A DNA stretch of 64,000 bases from Prevotella sp. (GTDB taxonomy: Bacteria; Bacteroidota; Bacteroidia; Bacteroidales; Bacteroidaceae): positions 62,001 through 126,000 of the forward strand of contig JAFYYV010000009.1 of the NCBI GenBank assembly GCA_017557405.1. The letters run 5' to 3'. Positions 3,621 to 50,228 of this stretch are shown piece by piece. A program made the translations under genes and the position numbers. Each line of letters starts with the position of its first letter. The first letter of the stretch is position 1. A model generated the notes under the pieces. That model did not search any database. It was not told the origin of the DNA and saw only the letters and a list, made by a program, of their open reading frames with translations.

Positions 3621-5020
3621 ACAAGCGTTTCATTCTTGGCATCGTAGCCTTCATCCTGCTCGTGTTTTTCATGCAGTTGCGCATGCCCAAGCAGTTCTCT
3701 TGGGATATGACCTTCCGACACGACAGCACCGATCCCTTCGGTTGCAAGTTGTTCGACTCGTTGATGACGGTTTCACTCGACAAGGGCTATACGGTGGAGA
3801 GCAAGACCTTTTATCAGCTCGCCCACGACTCCGCATGGAAGGGAAAACCGCGTGGCGTGTTGATGGTCTGCCGCCATTGGGATCCCGACTCGGTCACCAT
3901 CTGCCAGATGCTCGACCTCGTCCAGCAAGGTAATGTCGTGATGATAGCCAACAACTCACTTTATTCAAGTCGGCTATTGCGCGATACGTTGCAACTTGCC
4001 CATGTGTCATATTCGTATACTGAGTTCTCGCCCCAGAACATTCGCCGCAGGATGGAGAATAGCATTTACCATTCGTATGACACCATCTATTATGTGGGCC
4101 ATCCCGAAGTCTATCCTCGTCATTTCTATCCGCTCTATGCAAACCTTGTAGAGTCGTATTTTTTCTCTTACGAAGAAGATTCGATCGAGATGGATTGCGA
4201 CACTTTGGCTTATATGAAGGAAGAGCGTACTATTTGGGAGCATGTGGATTCCGTAAAACGTAACATAGAAGAACTCAGAGCCTCTTCTGCCAACTCTACC
4301 GTTGAGATGGATGAAGAACCTCCTGTCGACTCCGTAGAAATAGTATACTCTGACAAAAAACAAATAATAATTCACAATCCCATCGCTATCTCGTTCAACC
4401 GAGGGAAAGGACGGTTGATACTAGTTACAGCACCTTTGCTCTTCACCAACTTCTCCGCGCTCAACGATACTGTTTCGGGGTTGACAAACCGTTTGATGTC
4501 CGAGTTTGGAGACCTGCCGGTGGTGAGAACCGACAAATATGCAGAATCTACATTGGACGAAGCACGACAGAGTTCACCCTTACGTTATTTAGTCTCCCAG
4601 CCTCCGTTGCGTTGGGCGCTATATACAGGTTTGGTGATGCTGCTGCTCTTCATGGTGTTCAACTCGCGTCGTAGGCAACGAGTCATTCCTGTCGTAAAAC
4701 CTCCCTCCAATCGTTCGTTAGAGTTCATGAAGCTTGTGGGCACGCTCTATTACGAGCGCCACGACAATGCCGACTTGCTACACACGAAGTATCGCAGTTT
4801 CGTGGAGGAGGTGCGTCGGAAAACAGGGTTGGATATCGACGACGATACCGATGATGAACAACTCTTCGAACTATTGGCTGAGAAGACGGGAATGGAGATG
4901 GCTGAATTGCGCAATTTCATTCTGCGGTTACGTCAGATTGAAGCCCAAGAAGGTAGTTTGCGCGACGAACCGATGAAGCATCAAATCAACAAGATGAACA
5001 AGATATTGTATCACTTATAA
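3617..5020 (+). CDS. DUF4350 domain protein
   Basis: A 467-residue protein. An N-terminal membrane anchor (FILGIVAFILLVFFM, about 5-19) precedes a DUF4350 region (about 25-300). A second hydrophobic helix (WALYTGLVMLLLFMVF, about 333-348) follows, then a basic RRRQR stop-transfer and a cytoplasmic tail of about 110 residues. The fold of DUF4350 recalls the GldG/IfT family, but I cannot show this from the sequence. It overlaps the DUF4129 stop by 4 nt. The last codons (CAC TTA TAA) already belong to the 8-bp array that fills the following gap. Confidence 0.85.
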   Translation: MNKRFILGIVAFILLVFFMQLRMPKQFSWDMTFRHDSTDPFGCKLFDSLMTVSLDKGYTVESKTFYQLAHDSAWKGKPRGVLMVCRHWDPDSVTICQMLDLVQQGNVVMIANNSLYSSRLLRDTLQLAHVSYSYTEFSPQNIRRRMENSIYHSYDTIYYVGHPEVYPRHFYPLYANLVESYFFSYEEDSIEMDCDTLAYMKEERTIWEHVDSVKRNIEELRASSANSTVEMDEEPPVDSVEIVYSDKKQIIIHNPIAISFNRGKGRLILVTAPLLFTNFSALNDTVSGLTNRLMSEFGDLPVVRTDKYAESTLDEARQSSPLRYLVSQPPLRWALYTGLVMLLLFMVFNSRRRQRVIPVVKPPSNRSLEFMKLVGTLYYERHDNADLLHTKYRSFVEEVRRKTGLDIDDDTDDEQLFELLAEKTGMEMAELRNFILRLRQIEAQEGSLRDEPMKHQINKMNKILYHL

Positions 5021-5083
5021 ACTCATAAACTAAGAAACTTATAAACTCAAGAACTTATAACCTCAAAACCTCATAAAACTCAC
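5012..5083. repeat. 8-bp tandem array, AACTYATA type, about 9 units
   Basis: Consecutive 8-bp units from inside the DUF4350 stop codon to just before the moxR start: CACTTATA, AACTCATA, AACTAAGA, AACTTATA, AACTCAAG, AACTTATA, ACCTCAAA, ACCTCATA, AAACTCAC. There is no indel although the sequence is degenerate. Because 8 is not a multiple of 3, the TAA inside the unit recurs in all frames. Confidence 0.8.
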
Positions 5084-12080: not shown

Positions 12081-12256
12081 TCATCGTTCGACCAAACATG
12101 CAACATCTCAAAAGCAAATACAAGAAAGTGTGAAAAAGAATGAAAAAACATGACAATTTTCTGTCGACTTTTCCGTTCAATCTAGAGAAGAAAATGGAGT
12201 GAGAAAACGACTTTTTTGCTCCTATTTTCTCATTTTCCGCATACGAAATTGTCACA
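12081..12256. other. AT-rich intergenic DNA, nothing identified
   Basis: Between the fba terminator and the 22-bp array I see no coding frame with plausible composition, no promoter and no clear hairpin. The stretch is rich in A/T runs. Confidence 0.5.
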
Positions 12257-12388
12257 TGTGGCATCTATGCCGCTCATAGTTATGCTTTGACCCGCTCACT
12301 TGTGGCATCTGACGCCCTCAAAGCATAGCTATGACAAGCTCATTCCATACATTTGACTACCTCATTGCATAGCTTTGACAACGCTATA
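12257..12388. repeat. 22-bp tandem array A, 6 units without indels
   Basis: Six consecutive 22-bp units at 12257, 12279, 12301, 12323, 12345 and 12367. Each has a core like GCATAGCTTTGAC (variants TGTGGCATCTGAC, GTTATGCTTTGAC, GCATAGCTATGAC) and ends in an element like CTCATT or CTCACT. Units are contiguous with no spacers, so this is not CRISPR. The same unit forms arrays B (36637-36746) and C (48041-48150). It lies between a terminator and an orphan ATPase gene. Confidence 0.85.
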
Positions 12389-12603
12389 AAATGTAAAGAA
12401 AATGGAAGTCGCTGATACCTAATACTTTCCGAAAACGCTCAAAACTCGCGTATTTGCCCACGAGGAAGAATTTTTTCAAAACGTTGGCCTTCTCGAGGCA
12501 CCAAAATCTATAATTTTCTTTACAAAAGAGTGTTGTTGAGAAGTTTGGAACCATAAAGACTAAAGAGTAGTTTTGATGCATCATAATTAATAGAAATAAC
12601 AAA

Positions 12604-28997: not shown

Positions 28998-29098
28998 AAA
29001 GTTGAATTTCGGGAATATTTCTTTTGCGACTGCAAAGGTACGAATAATTGACGTAATAAACGAACAAAACGCGAAGTTTTCATCGACTTTGCTGCATA

Positions 29099-36636: not shown

Positions 36637-36746
36637 CATTCTTTTTGAGTTTGTCATTTGTGGCTTTTGACCGTCCCATTGCATAGCTTTGACGCTCTCA
36701 TTGCATAGCTTTAACAACGTCATTTGTGGTCTTTGACAGGAATAAA
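36637..36746. repeat. 22-bp tandem array B, 4-5 units without indels
   Basis: Exact 22-bp steps at 36659, 36681, 36703 and 36725, with a degenerate fifth unit at 36637. Cores read TGTGGCTTTTGAC, GCATAGCTTTGAC, GCATAGCTTTAAC and TGTGGTCTTTGAC; unit ends read CCCATT, CTCATT and GTCATT. It is the same unit as arrays A and C. The last unit runs directly into the terminator of the TPR gene. Confidence 0.85.
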
Positions 36747-36781
36747 AAAACGAACCGATTGTCTGCCAACCGGTTCGTTCG
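36743..36781 (-). terminator. Terminator of the ExbB-TonB-TPR operon
   Basis: On the minus strand CGAACCG (complement of 36771-36777) pairs with CGGTTCG (complement of 36751-36757); a T run follows (A at 36744-36750). It lies 31 nt after the TPR gene stop. Confidence 0.85.
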
Positions 36782-36811: not shown

Positions 36812-38230
36812 TTACTTCACACCAAGAGCTTCAAGAGCGGCCTTTGCAGCTTCATCCTCGGGTGCAATTTCGAGAATCTTCTTGAAGTTGGCGATAGAGG
36901 TAGCCTCGTCCTTGTTCAGATAATAGTAAGAGCCGAGATAACGATAGGCCTCAATCAGACGCATGTTGTCGCCGTTATCGCGTGTTGTGGAGTTAGCAAG
37001 ATGGTCAACGATAGCCTGATAGAAGGGTTTAGCCAAACCTTTCTCGCTGTCGGGGTCCATTGCACCAGCCAAACGAGCACGCATGAAGTTAGCGTAGTCA
37101 ATCTGCTCAGGATATGTCTCACCCAGCTTTGCGTATGTGGCATCAGCCTTCGCGAAAGCAGCAGCTTGCTCGTCACCCGTCTTGTCGGCACCCATCTTCT
37201 GGTAGATGCTTGCAAGACCTGCGATATCGTATGCACTGGCTTTTTCTTTTGCTGAGAGATAGAGATCGTAATACTTGGTTCCATTCTCGAAGTCGTCCAT
37301 AGCAATGTAGGTATCAGAGAGGTTCTTGTGGGTCATGCCGAGCTGATCCTTGTTGTCCTTGTTAGCCTCTTCTGCCTTGTGGAACATCTCGATGGCGCGG
37401 CTGAACTGCTTGGCATTCTTCAGAGCGGTGCCATAGTAGGTGTAGTCGAAACCAGAGATCTTGGCACTGTCGGAACGGTTGAACAGGGCGTCGGCATACT
37501 CAAGGGCCTCGTCCGTGCGCTCCATATCGGTGAGGTTATAGAAGGCCAGACGGTTCCAGGCAGCCTTACGGGCATCGCGTGTCAGACCGTACTTGGCGAG
37601 CTCTAGGCTCTTATCGCGATCCTGATGCATCCAGGAGGCCATTGCATAGTTGGTGATATCGACATCCTCAAGCTTGGTCTTGTCAACCTTGCTATAGTAA
37701 TCGATAGCCTGATCCAAACGGTTGGAGTTGTAGTAGATGCGGCCAGCCAAAGCGTCGACAGCGATGTCGGGACGCTGGGTGCGAAGGTCGTTGAGGTTGG
37801 CAACAGCCTCTTCAGGACTACGACCACGCAGGATGTTGGCATACTTGAAATAGCCTTCAGGATCTTTCGGATCGAAGTATTTGGCCTGCTGATACCACTC
37901 GGCAGCCTTACCACCATCGTCGTTGGCAACAGCAACGTCGCCGAGAAGGATATAAGCCTTGGCATACTTCTTGTCGCGTGCCATAGCCATTTCAGCATAC
38001 TTTGTTGCGTTCACTTTGTCGTTGGCGTCCAAGAAAGCACGACCAATGGCTGTGAGCATAGCGGGGTCCTTCTTGTTGGCGTTGACAATGGGTTTGAGTT
38101 GTTTGTCAACATCAGTCTTCGACTGGATGATTTTTGTTACCTGATCAATGACGGCCTTGTCTTGGGCCATCGCAGGAGCGCTGAAGCCTAGCATCAATGC
38201 TCCCATCACTAAATATTTGATAGCTTTCAT
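36812..38230 (-). CDS. Periplasmic TPR protein, last gene of the TonB operon
   Basis: A 472-residue exported protein with a signal peptide (ending APAMAQ, about residue 22). About ten tetratricopeptide-type helix pairs follow, for example KAYILLGDVAVANDDGGKAAEWYQQA (about 100-125), and the final STIANFKKILEIAPEDEAAKAAL-like unit near 445. TPR solenoids hold protein partners. Position at the end of exbB-exbD-exbD-tonB-binding protein suggests a scaffold for TonB-linked transport; a 73-nt gap separates it from the binding-protein gene. Strong codon bias suggests high expression. Confidence 0.88.
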   Translation of the reverse strand: MKAIKYLVMGALMLGFSAPAMAQDKAVIDQVTKIIQSKTDVDKQLKPIVNANKKDPAMLTAIGRAFLDANDKVNATKYAEMAMARDKKYAKAYILLGDVAVANDDGGKAAEWYQQAKYFDPKDPEGYFKYANILRGRSPEEAVANLNDLRTQRPDIAVDALAGRIYYNSNRLDQAIDYYSKVDKTKLEDVDITNYAMASWMHQDRDKSLELAKYGLTRDARKAAWNRLAFYNLTDMERTDEALEYADALFNRSDSAKISGFDYTYYGTALKNAKQFSRAIEMFHKAEEANKDNKDQLGMTHKNLSDTYIAMDDFENGTKYYDLYLSAKEKASAYDIAGLASIYQKMGADKTGDEQAAAFAKADATYAKLGETYPEQIDYANFMRARLAGAMDPDSEKGLAKPFYQAIVDHLANSTTRDNGDNMRLIEAYRYLGSYYYLNKDEATSIANFKKILEIAPEDEAAKAALEALGVK

Positions 38231-47712: not shown

Positions 47713-47786
47713 GGCGGGATAGCTCAGTTGGTTAGAGCGTCGGATTCATAATCCGGAGGTCGAGGGTTCGGGTCCCTCTCCCGCTA
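47713..47786 (+). tRNA. tRNA with CAU anticodon, elongator Met (or Ile2)
   Basis: A complete cloverleaf of 74 nt with discriminator A and no encoded CCA. Acceptor GGCGGGA pairs with TCCCGCT (first pair G-U). The D arm is GCTC/GAGC, the anticodon stem TCGGA/TCCGG with loop TTCATAA, and the T arm GAGGG/CCCTC with loop TTCGGGT. It is not the initiator: position 1 pairs with 72 and the anticodon stem lacks the GGG/CCC run. Whether the C34 becomes lysidine (Ile) cannot be read from DNA. Confidence 0.93.
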
Positions 47787-47797
47787 CATCGGATGTG

Positions 47798-47829: not shown

Positions 47830-48040
47830 GTTTTCAATTGTCATTTGTTCGCGCGAACATTCGCCCATCATGCTCTCTTAAGGTCATTTTTGGCTTTAAA
47901 TTTGTTGATTTTTTTCCGAATTTTTAATACATTTTAGTTAATTGTTCTAGAAATTTAATAGGCTGGTTTTGTAAAGAATTACGAAAAAAATGACGCATTC
48001 TGCGCGTTTTCAAGTGGGTTTCGTGGTCGGTTTCTGCATG
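47830..48040. other. Intergenic DNA, nothing identified
   Basis: AT-rich with runs such as AAATTTGTTGATTTTTTTCCG. The only frames are short and lack composition expected of genes. No promoter or hairpin stands out. Confidence 0.5.
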
Positions 48041-48150
48041 AAAGCTATGCTTTGACCTTGTCAAACGATAGCTTTGAGGGCGCAATATGTATGCTTTGAC
48101 CTCGTCAAAGCTATGCTTTAGCAGGGTCAAAGCATAGCTCTGACAAAGAG
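48041..48150. repeat. 22-bp tandem array C, 5 units, two-palindrome structure
   Basis: Five contiguous 22-bp units at 48041, 48063, 48085, 48107 and 48129. The unit joins two palindromes, AAAGCTATGCTTT and TTTGACCTCGTCAAA, that share their ends, so the array reads alike on both strands. Variants: AAACGATAGCTTT, ATATGTATGCTTT, AAAGCATAGCTCT. It is the least degenerate of the three arrays (others at 12257 and 36637). Confidence 0.87.
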
Positions 48151-48459: not shown

Positions 48460-49056
48460 ATGGCTGCAACAAAGAAAATCAAGACTGCATTGGTATCGGT
48501 GTTCCATAAAGATGGCTTGGACGAACTGCTCGCCAAGCTGAATGCCGAGGGCGTGAAATTCCTTTCTACAGGCGGCACCCAGAAGTTCATTGAGTCGCTG
48601 GGCTACGACTGCCAGACCGTGGAGAGTGTGACTACTTATCCTTCGATTCTCGGAGGGCGCGTGAAGACGCTCCATCCGAAAGTGTTCGGAGGCATTTTGG
48701 GTCGTCGTGAAAACGAGGGCGACCAGCAACAAATGAAGGAGTATGAGATTCCTGAAATCGATTTGGTCATCGTGGATCTTTATCCATTCGAACAGACAGT
48801 GGCCAGCGGTGCATCTGAGCCCGACATCATCGAGAAGATTGATATTGGCGGCATTTCGCTCATTCGTGCCGGCGCCAAGAACTTCAACGATGTGGTTATC
48901 GTTCCCAGCAAGGCCGAATACGCCGTTCTGCTCGACATCTTGAACCGCAAGGGCGCACAAACCGACATTGAAGACCGCCGCATGTTTGCCGAGCGCGCTT
49001 TCGGTGTGAGCAGCCACTATGATACAGCCATCCACGAGTGGTTCTGCAAGAAATAG
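48460..49056 (+). CDS. purH: Stand-alone IMP cyclohydrolase (PurH N-terminal half)
   Basis: A 198-residue protein consisting of the MGS-like IMP cyclohydrolase domain only; it closes FAICAR to IMP, the last step of purine synthesis. KTALVSVFHKDGLDELL, VKFLSTGGTQKFIE, GGRVKTLHPKVFGGIL, LVIVDLYPFEQTV and IEKIDIGGISLIRAGAKN are all present and typical of bacterial PurH. The frame then stops where the transformylase domain would begin, at IHEWFCKK. The promoter at 48397-48427 excludes the longer frame from 48352; an ATG at 48445 is a possible alternative start. The missing half is at 27810-28997. Confidence 0.92.
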   Translation: MAATKKIKTALVSVFHKDGLDELLAKLNAEGVKFLSTGGTQKFIESLGYDCQTVESVTTYPSILGGRVKTLHPKVFGGILGRRENEGDQQQMKEYEIPEIDLVIVDLYPFEQTVASGASEPDIIEKIDIGGISLIRAGAKNFNDVVIVPSKAEYAVLLDILNRKGAQTDIEDRRMFAERAFGVSSHYDTAIHEWFCKK

Positions 49057-49205: not shown

Positions 49206-50228
49206 ATGGGATTTTTTTCATTTATCCAGGAAATTGCAATGGACCTGGGCACGGCCAACACCATTATTATCAGTGATGACAAGATTGTGGTTGACGAGCC
49301 CTCTGTTGTGGCATTGAATCGCCATGATGGCAAGATGATTGCCGTAGGCGATGAAGCCAAGTTGATGTACGAGAAGACTCACGAGAACATCAAGACCGTT
49401 CGCCCGTTGCGCGACGGCGTGATTGCCGATTTCTCGGCTTGTGAGCAGATGATGCGCGGATTGATCAAGAAAGTACATACGGGCAGCCGCCTGTTCTCTC
49501 CGTCGCTCCGCATGGTGATTGGCGTACCTTCGGGTTCTACCGAAGTGGAATTGCGTGCTGTTCGCGATAGTGCTGAACATGCTGACGGACGCGACGTATA
49601 CTTGATTTTCGAGCCGATGGCTGCCGCTATTGGTATTGGCATTGATGTGGAGGCTCCGGAAGGAAATATGATTGTTGACATTGGTGGTGGCTCGACCGAG
49701 ATTGCTGTGATTTCGTTGGGTGGCATTGTGTCGAACAACTCCATCCGTACTGCCGGCGACGATTTGAACGCCGACATTCAGGAGTACATGAGCCGTCAGC
49801 ACAATGTGAAGGTCAGTGAGCGTATGGCCGAGCGTATTAAGATTCATGTAGGAAGCGCCCTCACCGATTTGGGCGACGAGGCTCCTGAAGACTATATCGT
49901 GCACGGCCCGAACCGTATTACCGCTCTGCCGATGGAGGTGCCCGTTTGCTATCAGGAGATTGCCCACTGCATCGACAAGACCGTTGCGAAGATTGAAAAC
50001 GCCGTACTCTCGGCTCTCGAGAATACGCCGCCTGAGCTTTATGCCGATATCGTGAAGAATGGCATCTACCTGACTGGTGGTGGAGCATTGCTTCGCGGTC
50101 TTGACAAGCGTTTGAAGGACAAGATCAACATCGACTTCCACATTGCCGAAGATCCTTTGCACAGTGTGGCTAAGGGCGCTGGAATCGCTCTGAAGAACGT
50201 AGATCGTTTCTCGTTCCTCATGCGATAA
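49206..50228 (+). CDS. mreB: Rod shape-determining protein MreB
   Basis: A 340-residue bacterial actin: phosphate-1 loop AMDLGTANTIIISDD (about 11-25), FEPMAAAIGIGIDVEAPEGNMIVDIGGGSTEIAVISLGG (two segments, about 137-175), and the adenosine region LTGGGALLRGLDKRL (about 294-308). It forms membrane filaments that steer lateral wall synthesis. It heads the rod operon mreB-mreC-mreD-mrdA-rodA, 149 nt after the IMP cyclohydrolase gene. Confidence 0.97.
   Translation: MGFFSFIQEIAMDLGTANTIIISDDKIVVDEPSVVALNRHDGKMIAVGDEAKLMYEKTHENIKTVRPLRDGVIADFSACEQMMRGLIKKVHTGSRLFSPSLRMVIGVPSGSTEVELRAVRDSAEHADGRDVYLIFEPMAAAIGIGIDVEAPEGNMIVDIGGGSTEIAVISLGGIVSNNSIRTAGDDLNADIQEYMSRQHNVKVSERMAERIKIHVGSALTDLGDEAPEDYIVHGPNRITALPMEVPVCYQEIAHCIDKTVAKIENAVLSALENTPPELYADIVKNGIYLTGGGALLRGLDKRLKDKINIDFHIAEDPLHSVAKGAGIALKNVDRFSFLMR

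Follow-up and report, generated by a model that had tools for sequence, protein, structure and literature searches.

Array C lies between a tRNA-Met gene and a PurH-type gene in the window, by which we mean the whole 64,000-nucleotide stretch of Prevotella sp. DNA that was analyzed, and two related arrays (A and B) lie elsewhere in it. The features discussed here are as follows:

12147..12531, plus strand: family I composite element of 385 bp (leader, array and tail), one of 20 aligned copies
12252..12378, plus strand: array A, the run of 22-bp units that the family I element contains
36654..36736, minus strand: array B, four units, simple type III
36749..36779, minus strand: intrinsic-terminator-like hairpin, belonging to the TPR gene at 36812-38230 (minus), directly before array B
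47713..47787, plus strand: tRNA-Met (anticodon CAT), upstream neighbor of array C
48039..48148, no strand assigned: array C, five 22-bp units
48460..49056, plus strand: PurH-type gene, downstream neighbor of array C, with its start codon placed by eye

The original prediction of five contiguous units of exactly 22 bp was confirmed for array C, in which units start at 48039, 48061, 48083, 48105 and 48127 and the run ends at 48143 (48148 when the last spacer is counted). Self-identity of this array is 0.57 at lag 22 and at most 0.35 at the other lags from 15 to 30. The two further places said to carry the same unit are likewise real, at 12274-12378 and 36654-36736, and the register is common to all three; arrays A (0.60), B (0.58) and C (0.57) are the top three lag-22 places in the window when scored over 88 bp, compared with 0.49 for the next-best real place and a peak of 0.45 in 20 base-shuffled windows. 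The first unit of array A, at 12252, was assigned by eye from a weak match, the profile-matched part being 12274-12378. Both outer units of array B have the core type TCAAAGACCACAAATGA on the minus strand, and this array is of the codirectional-downstream kind, following directly on the terminator-like hairpin of its minus-strand neighbor. Array C falls outside composite families I and II, described below, and has no first unit of the TCAAAGACCACAAATGA type. Its downstream gene encodes an MGS-like domain but reaches its stop after covering positions 1-57 of the 311 in AICARFT_IMPCHas, and is perhaps a split PurH; MreB follows at 49206. Other periods in the window reach 0.60 (lag 16) and 0.66 (lag 24), peaks that presumably stem from its 8-bp repeats. 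Such repeats were seen as two runs of a AACTCATA-like unit, at 158-214 and 5013-5082, which have higher periods of 16 and 24 bp and bear no sequence relationship to the 22-bp arrays.

Each unit comprises a 17-bp near-palindrome and a 5-bp variable spacer, the consensus being TCAAAGCTATGCTTTGAC followed by that spacer. The steadiest parts are the TCA...TGA anchors, of which all six bases are present in 196 of 318 units and five of six in 88, a count in which end units are biased since arrays were extended by the anchor rule. The predicted first dyad, in which symmetric positions were to be the best kept, has an asymmetric TAT/ATA center (complementary in 2% of 105 core units of the window's genome, versus 48% in shuffles). 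Between 32 organisms, the outer pairs of this dyad were complementary at frequencies of 0.45 versus 0.32 and 0.42 versus 0.27 in shuffles (sd 0.08), a covariation of less than 2 sd. The predicted second dyad, GAC-NNN-GTC, is not favored: it is present at two of the four array C junctions, and outer spacer bases were complementary 79 times against 113 expected among 258 spacers of this genome, paralogous copies included.

Register and distribution of the arrays

Searching the window's genome (G000) with the pattern AAAGCTATGCTTTGACNNNGTC at up to three mismatches returned 285 matches (167 + 118), and the reversed control returned 0 + 0. Sixty stretches around listed matches, together with the window, were then scanned with a 17-bp profile in which no spacing is assumed; having been chosen by matches, these stretches are a sample and no census. 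The scan found 95 clusters, 61 of them holding at least two units, and within these 61 arrays the steps between units were 146 of 22 bp, 15 of 44, one of 66 and one of 82, so that 162 of 163 are multiples of 22. As predicted, sequence drifts and length stays fixed, since this register is kept despite differences at 6.3 of 22 positions between units 22 bp apart (146 steps). The sole off-grid step, of 82 bp, belongs to L038. A motif-free lag scan of G000 placed 79 stretches at lag 22, one at lag 21 and none at lag 23. Neither a scarcity of copies nor unit lengths scattered over 19-25 bp, which had been named in advance as signs of chance or ordinary drift, was found, given the 285 matches and near-exact 22-bp steps.

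All 61 arrays in the G000 sample lie outside called genes according to a simple home-made gene caller, the 17-bp overlap of L038 with its neighbor gene being caused by its off-grid match. By the same caller, the 57 array-bearing gaps comprise 27 between codirectional, 16 between divergent and 14 between convergent genes, and the 71 gaps in those stretches that are 130 bp or longer and carry no array comprise 41, 26 and 4, respectively.

Within the genus, 75 of 299 sampled genomes match AAAGCTATGCTTTKAC at one mismatch or fewer, a level at which single matches also arise in the reversed control; counts are 0 in most genomes and rise to 160, with at least 15 matches in 15 of the 299, G000 included. 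Because this distribution is patchy, hosts can evidently do without the array. Cultivable species rich in arrays include Hoylesella marshii and Prevotella illustrans. Mostly 22-bp phased arrays were found in G012, G001, G006, one of two G014 stretches, G055, G184, G092, G268, G266 and G309. Off-register steps occurred in G012 (21, 39, 43 and 45), G266 (43) and G277 (31), and some of those in G012 and G266 may arise from core matches that fall next to an array by chance. The lag scan of G055 gave 10 stretches at lag 22, two at 21 and three at 23. Counted by hand, close same-strand pairs were in register in 34 of 34 cases among 100 listed of 177 matches in G092 and in 6 of 6 among 50 listed of 297 in G184.

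A GTDB scan for two phased units recovered at least 116 stretches, and 280 of 287 steps were in register over 116 loci outside G000, a set in which the search design guarantees one 22-bp pair per locus. Arrays of about 3-6 units, read by eye, occur beyond Prevotella and close genera in Mediterranea massiliensis, Bacteroides faecis, B. bouchesdurhonensis, Candidatus Bacteroides merdavium and Caecibacteroides pullorum, and in B. faecis and Mediterranea the close pairs among the matches listed are 22 or 44 apart. Candidates from Lactococcus (L230/L256), Gottesmanbacteria (L291) and Rhodopseudomonas (L292) were set aside as two-unit palindromes by eye. An order-wide draw yielded matches at up to two mismatches in 11 of 393 genomes, which apart from G000 and G266 are single matches with one or two mismatches; the reversed control gave single matches in more than a dozen genomes. 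This even draw, which included three genomes of the same family's other genera, showed nothing above control level outside the genus.

In IMG/VR, no contig held either of two exact 18-bp units, and a viral origin of the arrays was rejected on this ground. Two contigs carry phased double units, one of them between tail genes, and phages can therefore carry the array. A prophage contig bears arrays at two places, L333 6505-6592 and L335 6883-6961. The former starts where a 698-aa ORF has its stop codon and extends across the earliest in-frame start of the following ORF, which is a tail-protein relative; a 301-bp query around it had no match among phage records.

Composite families and persistence between genomes

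An all-against-all comparison of the G000 arrays separated two families with common flanks, family I with 20 copies and family II with 17, in each of which a fixed leader and tail flank the core array and mean column identity is 83%. Their lengths are nearly constant: 17 family I copies measure exactly 385 bp, two 386 bp and one (L036) 363 bp, which is short of exactly one unit, and 16 family II copies measure exactly 218 bp and one 219 bp. The remaining 24 arrays are simple runs (type III), 12 of which begin with a unit within three mismatches of TCAAAGACCACAAATGA; for 10 of those 12 the gene upstream is codirectional. In G000 there are 23 matches to the left 107 bp of family II, and the 22 that were examined all bear arrays (16 and four in two sets of stretches, and L188 and L192, the last two judged by eye), with no transposase seen in place of an array at any of them. 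Family II arrays are surrounded by the inverted sequences TGACAAAATGTAA / TTACATTTTGTCA; for family I and type III such sequences are not clear. For many arrays, then, the 22-bp run forms the core of a composite repeat with dispersed copies, and mobility, which the original prediction overlooked, accounts for much of their distribution. Several hundred additional bp without a called gene are common to the family I copies L044, L054, L059, L069, L043 and L077, and in L044 this extended shared sequence includes a long inverted repeat by eye.

Leaders also recur in G266: at 9 of 10 loci, arrays that differ from one another follow a leader end that hardly varies; L208 and L209 are the two ends of one element with inverted 22-bp ends, L208 being without the longer leader. 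At L211 (1522-1730), one leader end adjoins a fragment that by eye resembles the C terminus of an IS3-type transposase.

Of 398 genomes, G277 matched the array C locus best, and 14 collinear blocks (54.5 kb) link it to most of the window. Arrays B and C occupy the same sites in both genomes, and array A falls in a non-collinear stretch. Array C is 78% identical to its G277 orthologue, between flanks of 58% and 55%; array B is 83% identical (flanks 57% and 91%), and further orthologous pairs gave 83% for L042 (75% and 72%), 97% for L074 (85% and 77%) and 73% for L036 (64% and 58%). The array of the L048/L163 pair, at 63%, falls below its flanks (78% and 78%). There, three core units have changed type without loss of phase next to a nearly unchanged leader, and single-unit switches with phase kept were read in array B (unit 2) and L042/L154, all by eye. 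The G277 stretches were picked for having arrays, and the frequency of site sharing cannot be read from them; 62 of 63 of their steps are in register, and a motif-free lag scan of G277 placed 49 stretches at lag 22, four at 21 and none at 23. G277 also carries an inserted array, some 300 bp long, that is missing from the window at 29078; it shows no clear target-site duplication, and its core TAAAATAATTTATTTTA is quite different in sequence and still repeats every 22 bp. A shared intergenic site (L057 2861-3105 / L168 3787-4041) was seen to hold a family II element in G000 and another array type in G277. The constant features of these arrays are register and anchors; core, spacer and leader are exchangeable.

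Origin and maintenance of the register

We propose, with a probability of about one half, that arrays A, B and C belong to a dispersed non-coding intergenic repeat of Prevotella and some relatives which spread in a MITE-like manner and whose register is held by a cooperative dyad-binding protein. The core, mostly of 3-7 units of near-palindrome and spacer, is in several families carried between a fixed leader and tail, as the repeated copies show, and would spread as a MITE-like element; settled arrays can change through substitution, whole-unit loss and core-type exchange, and hardly through phase-shifting indels. Each dyad would be bound as double-stranded DNA by a putative symmetric protein, which would stack cooperatively on neighboring dyads two helical turns apart and thereby keep the register. 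The spacing is so strictly kept that something probably depends on it, and a cooperative protein-binding scaffold, as originally suggested, fits the arrays; the protein, its cooperativity and any benefit to the host are all putative. Counting against the proposal are the patchy distribution, the asymmetric dyad center, the off-register steps, the identity of the L048/L163 array below that of its flanks, and an outer-pair covariation smaller than 2 sd. Reasoning further, one may speculate that an architectural protein of Prevotella and Bacteroides polymerizes on the phased dyads, which MITEs would have spread as docking sites, and that species-specific changes of the outer dyad bases (TC..GA, TA..TA, CA..TG, CT..AG) record co-evolution with it, although we hold this extended version to be rather doubtful.

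Neutral minisatellite slippage, to which the tandem organization and stretches of almost identical units (for example G277 C33:31181-31345) might point, is scarcely credible. The flanks of six orthologous pairs show 14 internal gap events per 414 substitutions, or about 1 per 30, and at this rate some 35 of the 163 G000 steps should be broken, a rough estimate that assumes point changes, whereas core exchange also makes differences. A single broken step was found, contrary to what slippage or neutral decay predicts, and the near-exact phase is moreover shared across several genera; the prediction that such slippage is not at work is borne out by this register among divergent units. Within the arrays of the six pairs themselves, two internal gap events were counted against about four expected, a difference that is not significant. 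A purely selfish, non-autonomous element, in which the array is MITE cargo and phase is inherited through copying and whole-unit recombination with no host-bound protein, is a possible if lesser explanation. The fixed lengths of families I and II, the loss of exactly one unit in L036, the patchy distribution, the leader-plus-array loci of G266 with their one inverted-ended element and the G277 insertion absent at window 29078 all agree with it, and recent copying of whole elements could keep phase without any protein. Phase is nevertheless kept in type III arrays and array C, which have no common leader, in orthologous arrays across 3-37% sequence divergence, and identically in distant genera with other leaders; selfish copying certainly happens, and it is more likely that dyad recognition is needed for phase. 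The recognizing protein might instead be a transposase, with the arrays serving as its binding sites at transposon ends. The ends of Mu and Tn7 carry several recognition sites in a row, each about 22 bp long, and the 22-bp register, the inverted TGACAAAATGTAA / TTACATTTTGTCA of family II and the inverted ends at L208/L209 would suit such a role. Mu and Tn7 sites are not known to be palindromic, however, in contrast to the units here, and the 22 family II left ends all carry arrays and in no case a transposase instead; we hold this reading to be unlikely. Mu-transpos_C (PF09299) had no matches in 22 genomes, which does not show absence, since its control had none anywhere either.

Readings in which the arrays act through transcription fare less well than cooperative dyad binding. 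If transcribed arrays folded into hairpins that stabilize or end transcripts, in the manner of REP or BOX RNA, one would expect the palindromic units, the excess of arrays in convergent gaps (14 of 57, versus 4 of 71 array-free gaps, by the home-made gene caller), the terminator-like hairpins adjoining 6 of 24 type III arrays (6 of 48 ends, a count with no shuffle baseline) and the arrays between codirectional genes in L219 and between prophage tail genes in L333. Yet 16 of 57 arrays lie between divergent genes, RNAalifold found little covariation (term +0.29 for family II and -1.38 for family I), and spacers paired across arrays less than in shuffles (26.6 observed versus 32.5 in pool shuffles, 23 arrays), as they did in arrays of relatives (13.4 versus 15.4, 14 arrays). 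Covariation and cross-array spacer pairing thus lend no support to the folding RNA that had been offered as an alternative, and we regard it as improbable. An array-wide fold-back hairpin, suggested by L087 of G012, was rejected since spacers pair no more than shuffles. Rfam returned no match above gathering score for the five loci queried; weak mir-2363 matches (E 0.05) lie on both strands of the L048 array, and a sub-threshold match to the Bacteroides sRNA BTnc060 was noted at L048 5355-5533 on the minus strand (74.6 bits against a gathering score of 228.9, E 4.8e-10). Still less probable is a function as tandem promoters. The Bacteroidetes -7 box has the motif TAnnTTTG, which appears on one strand in 114 of 318 units, a count with no shuffle baseline; 204 units are without it, and arrays lie between convergent genes too.

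Dispersed bacterial repeats are usually recognized by sequence, whereas here the near-invariant property is a unit length of about two helical turns, with an exchangeable core. Whether such repeats are mere passengers or landing sites for a protein thereby becomes a testable question. Were the protein to be found, bacteria common in the gut, mouth and rumen would have a new factor concerned with genome organization or with transposons, and ready-made typing markers would be at hand in the arrays.

Comparison with known repeat systems

Among the literature matches listed, no description of 22-bp phased palindrome arrays in Prevotella or Bacteroides was found. The boxB module of the BOX elements of streptococci is about 45 bp long. 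As far as the available part of the source describes them, BOX elements are boxA-boxB(n)-boxC composites with a variable number of tandem cores between flanking modules, and in S. suis a boxB core of this type is found between different flanks (PMC3049150). The arrays resemble BOX in their dispersed copies, in the fixed modules flanking a tandem core (20 copies of family I and 17 of family II) and in their intergenic location, kept by 61 of 61 arrays by the home-made gene caller. The likeness is one of organization, and the portion of that account available to us describes no two-turn palindrome register (PMC3049150); BOX RNA, furthermore, is predicted to fold, whereas folding of the present arrays gets no support.

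The BrickBuilt MITE of Porphyromonas gingivalis shares with the arrays the order Bacteroidales, an intergenic location and the sequence of leader, tandem repeats and tail, and the accessible text reports 19 copies with 23-nt tandem repeats without spacers, 0-6% indels within elements, occurrence in P. gingivalis and P. gulae, and ends resembling those of the IS5 family, GAGACC...GGTCTC (PMC4596501). The present arrays differ in their 22-bp unit, in being palindromic, in occurring in several genera and, by eye, in the ends of families I and II, which are unlike GAGACC...GGTCTC. Short tandem 22-nt repeats are also mentioned for P. gingivalis W83, their sequence and place not being given in the text available (PMC4596501).

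REP and BIME sequences, which the available excerpt describes as small high-copy extragenic palindromes located mostly between unidirectional or convergent genes, are similar in being small, palindromic, extragenic and abundant (PMC3733652). They differ from the direct tandem phased arrays found here, whose consensus unit TCAAAGCTATGCTTTGAC with its variable spacer contains no fixed GTAG or CGTC tag. Nor is a RAYT-type Y1 transposase associated with the arrays: Y1_Tnp occurs in 5 of 13 array-rich genomes (two of these matches being weak and partial) versus 7 of 12 array-poor genomes, and a RAYT-driven REP was rejected. The array family works like BOX and BrickBuilt, and is neither BrickBuilt nor a RAYT-type REP but a phased palindromic composite repeat.
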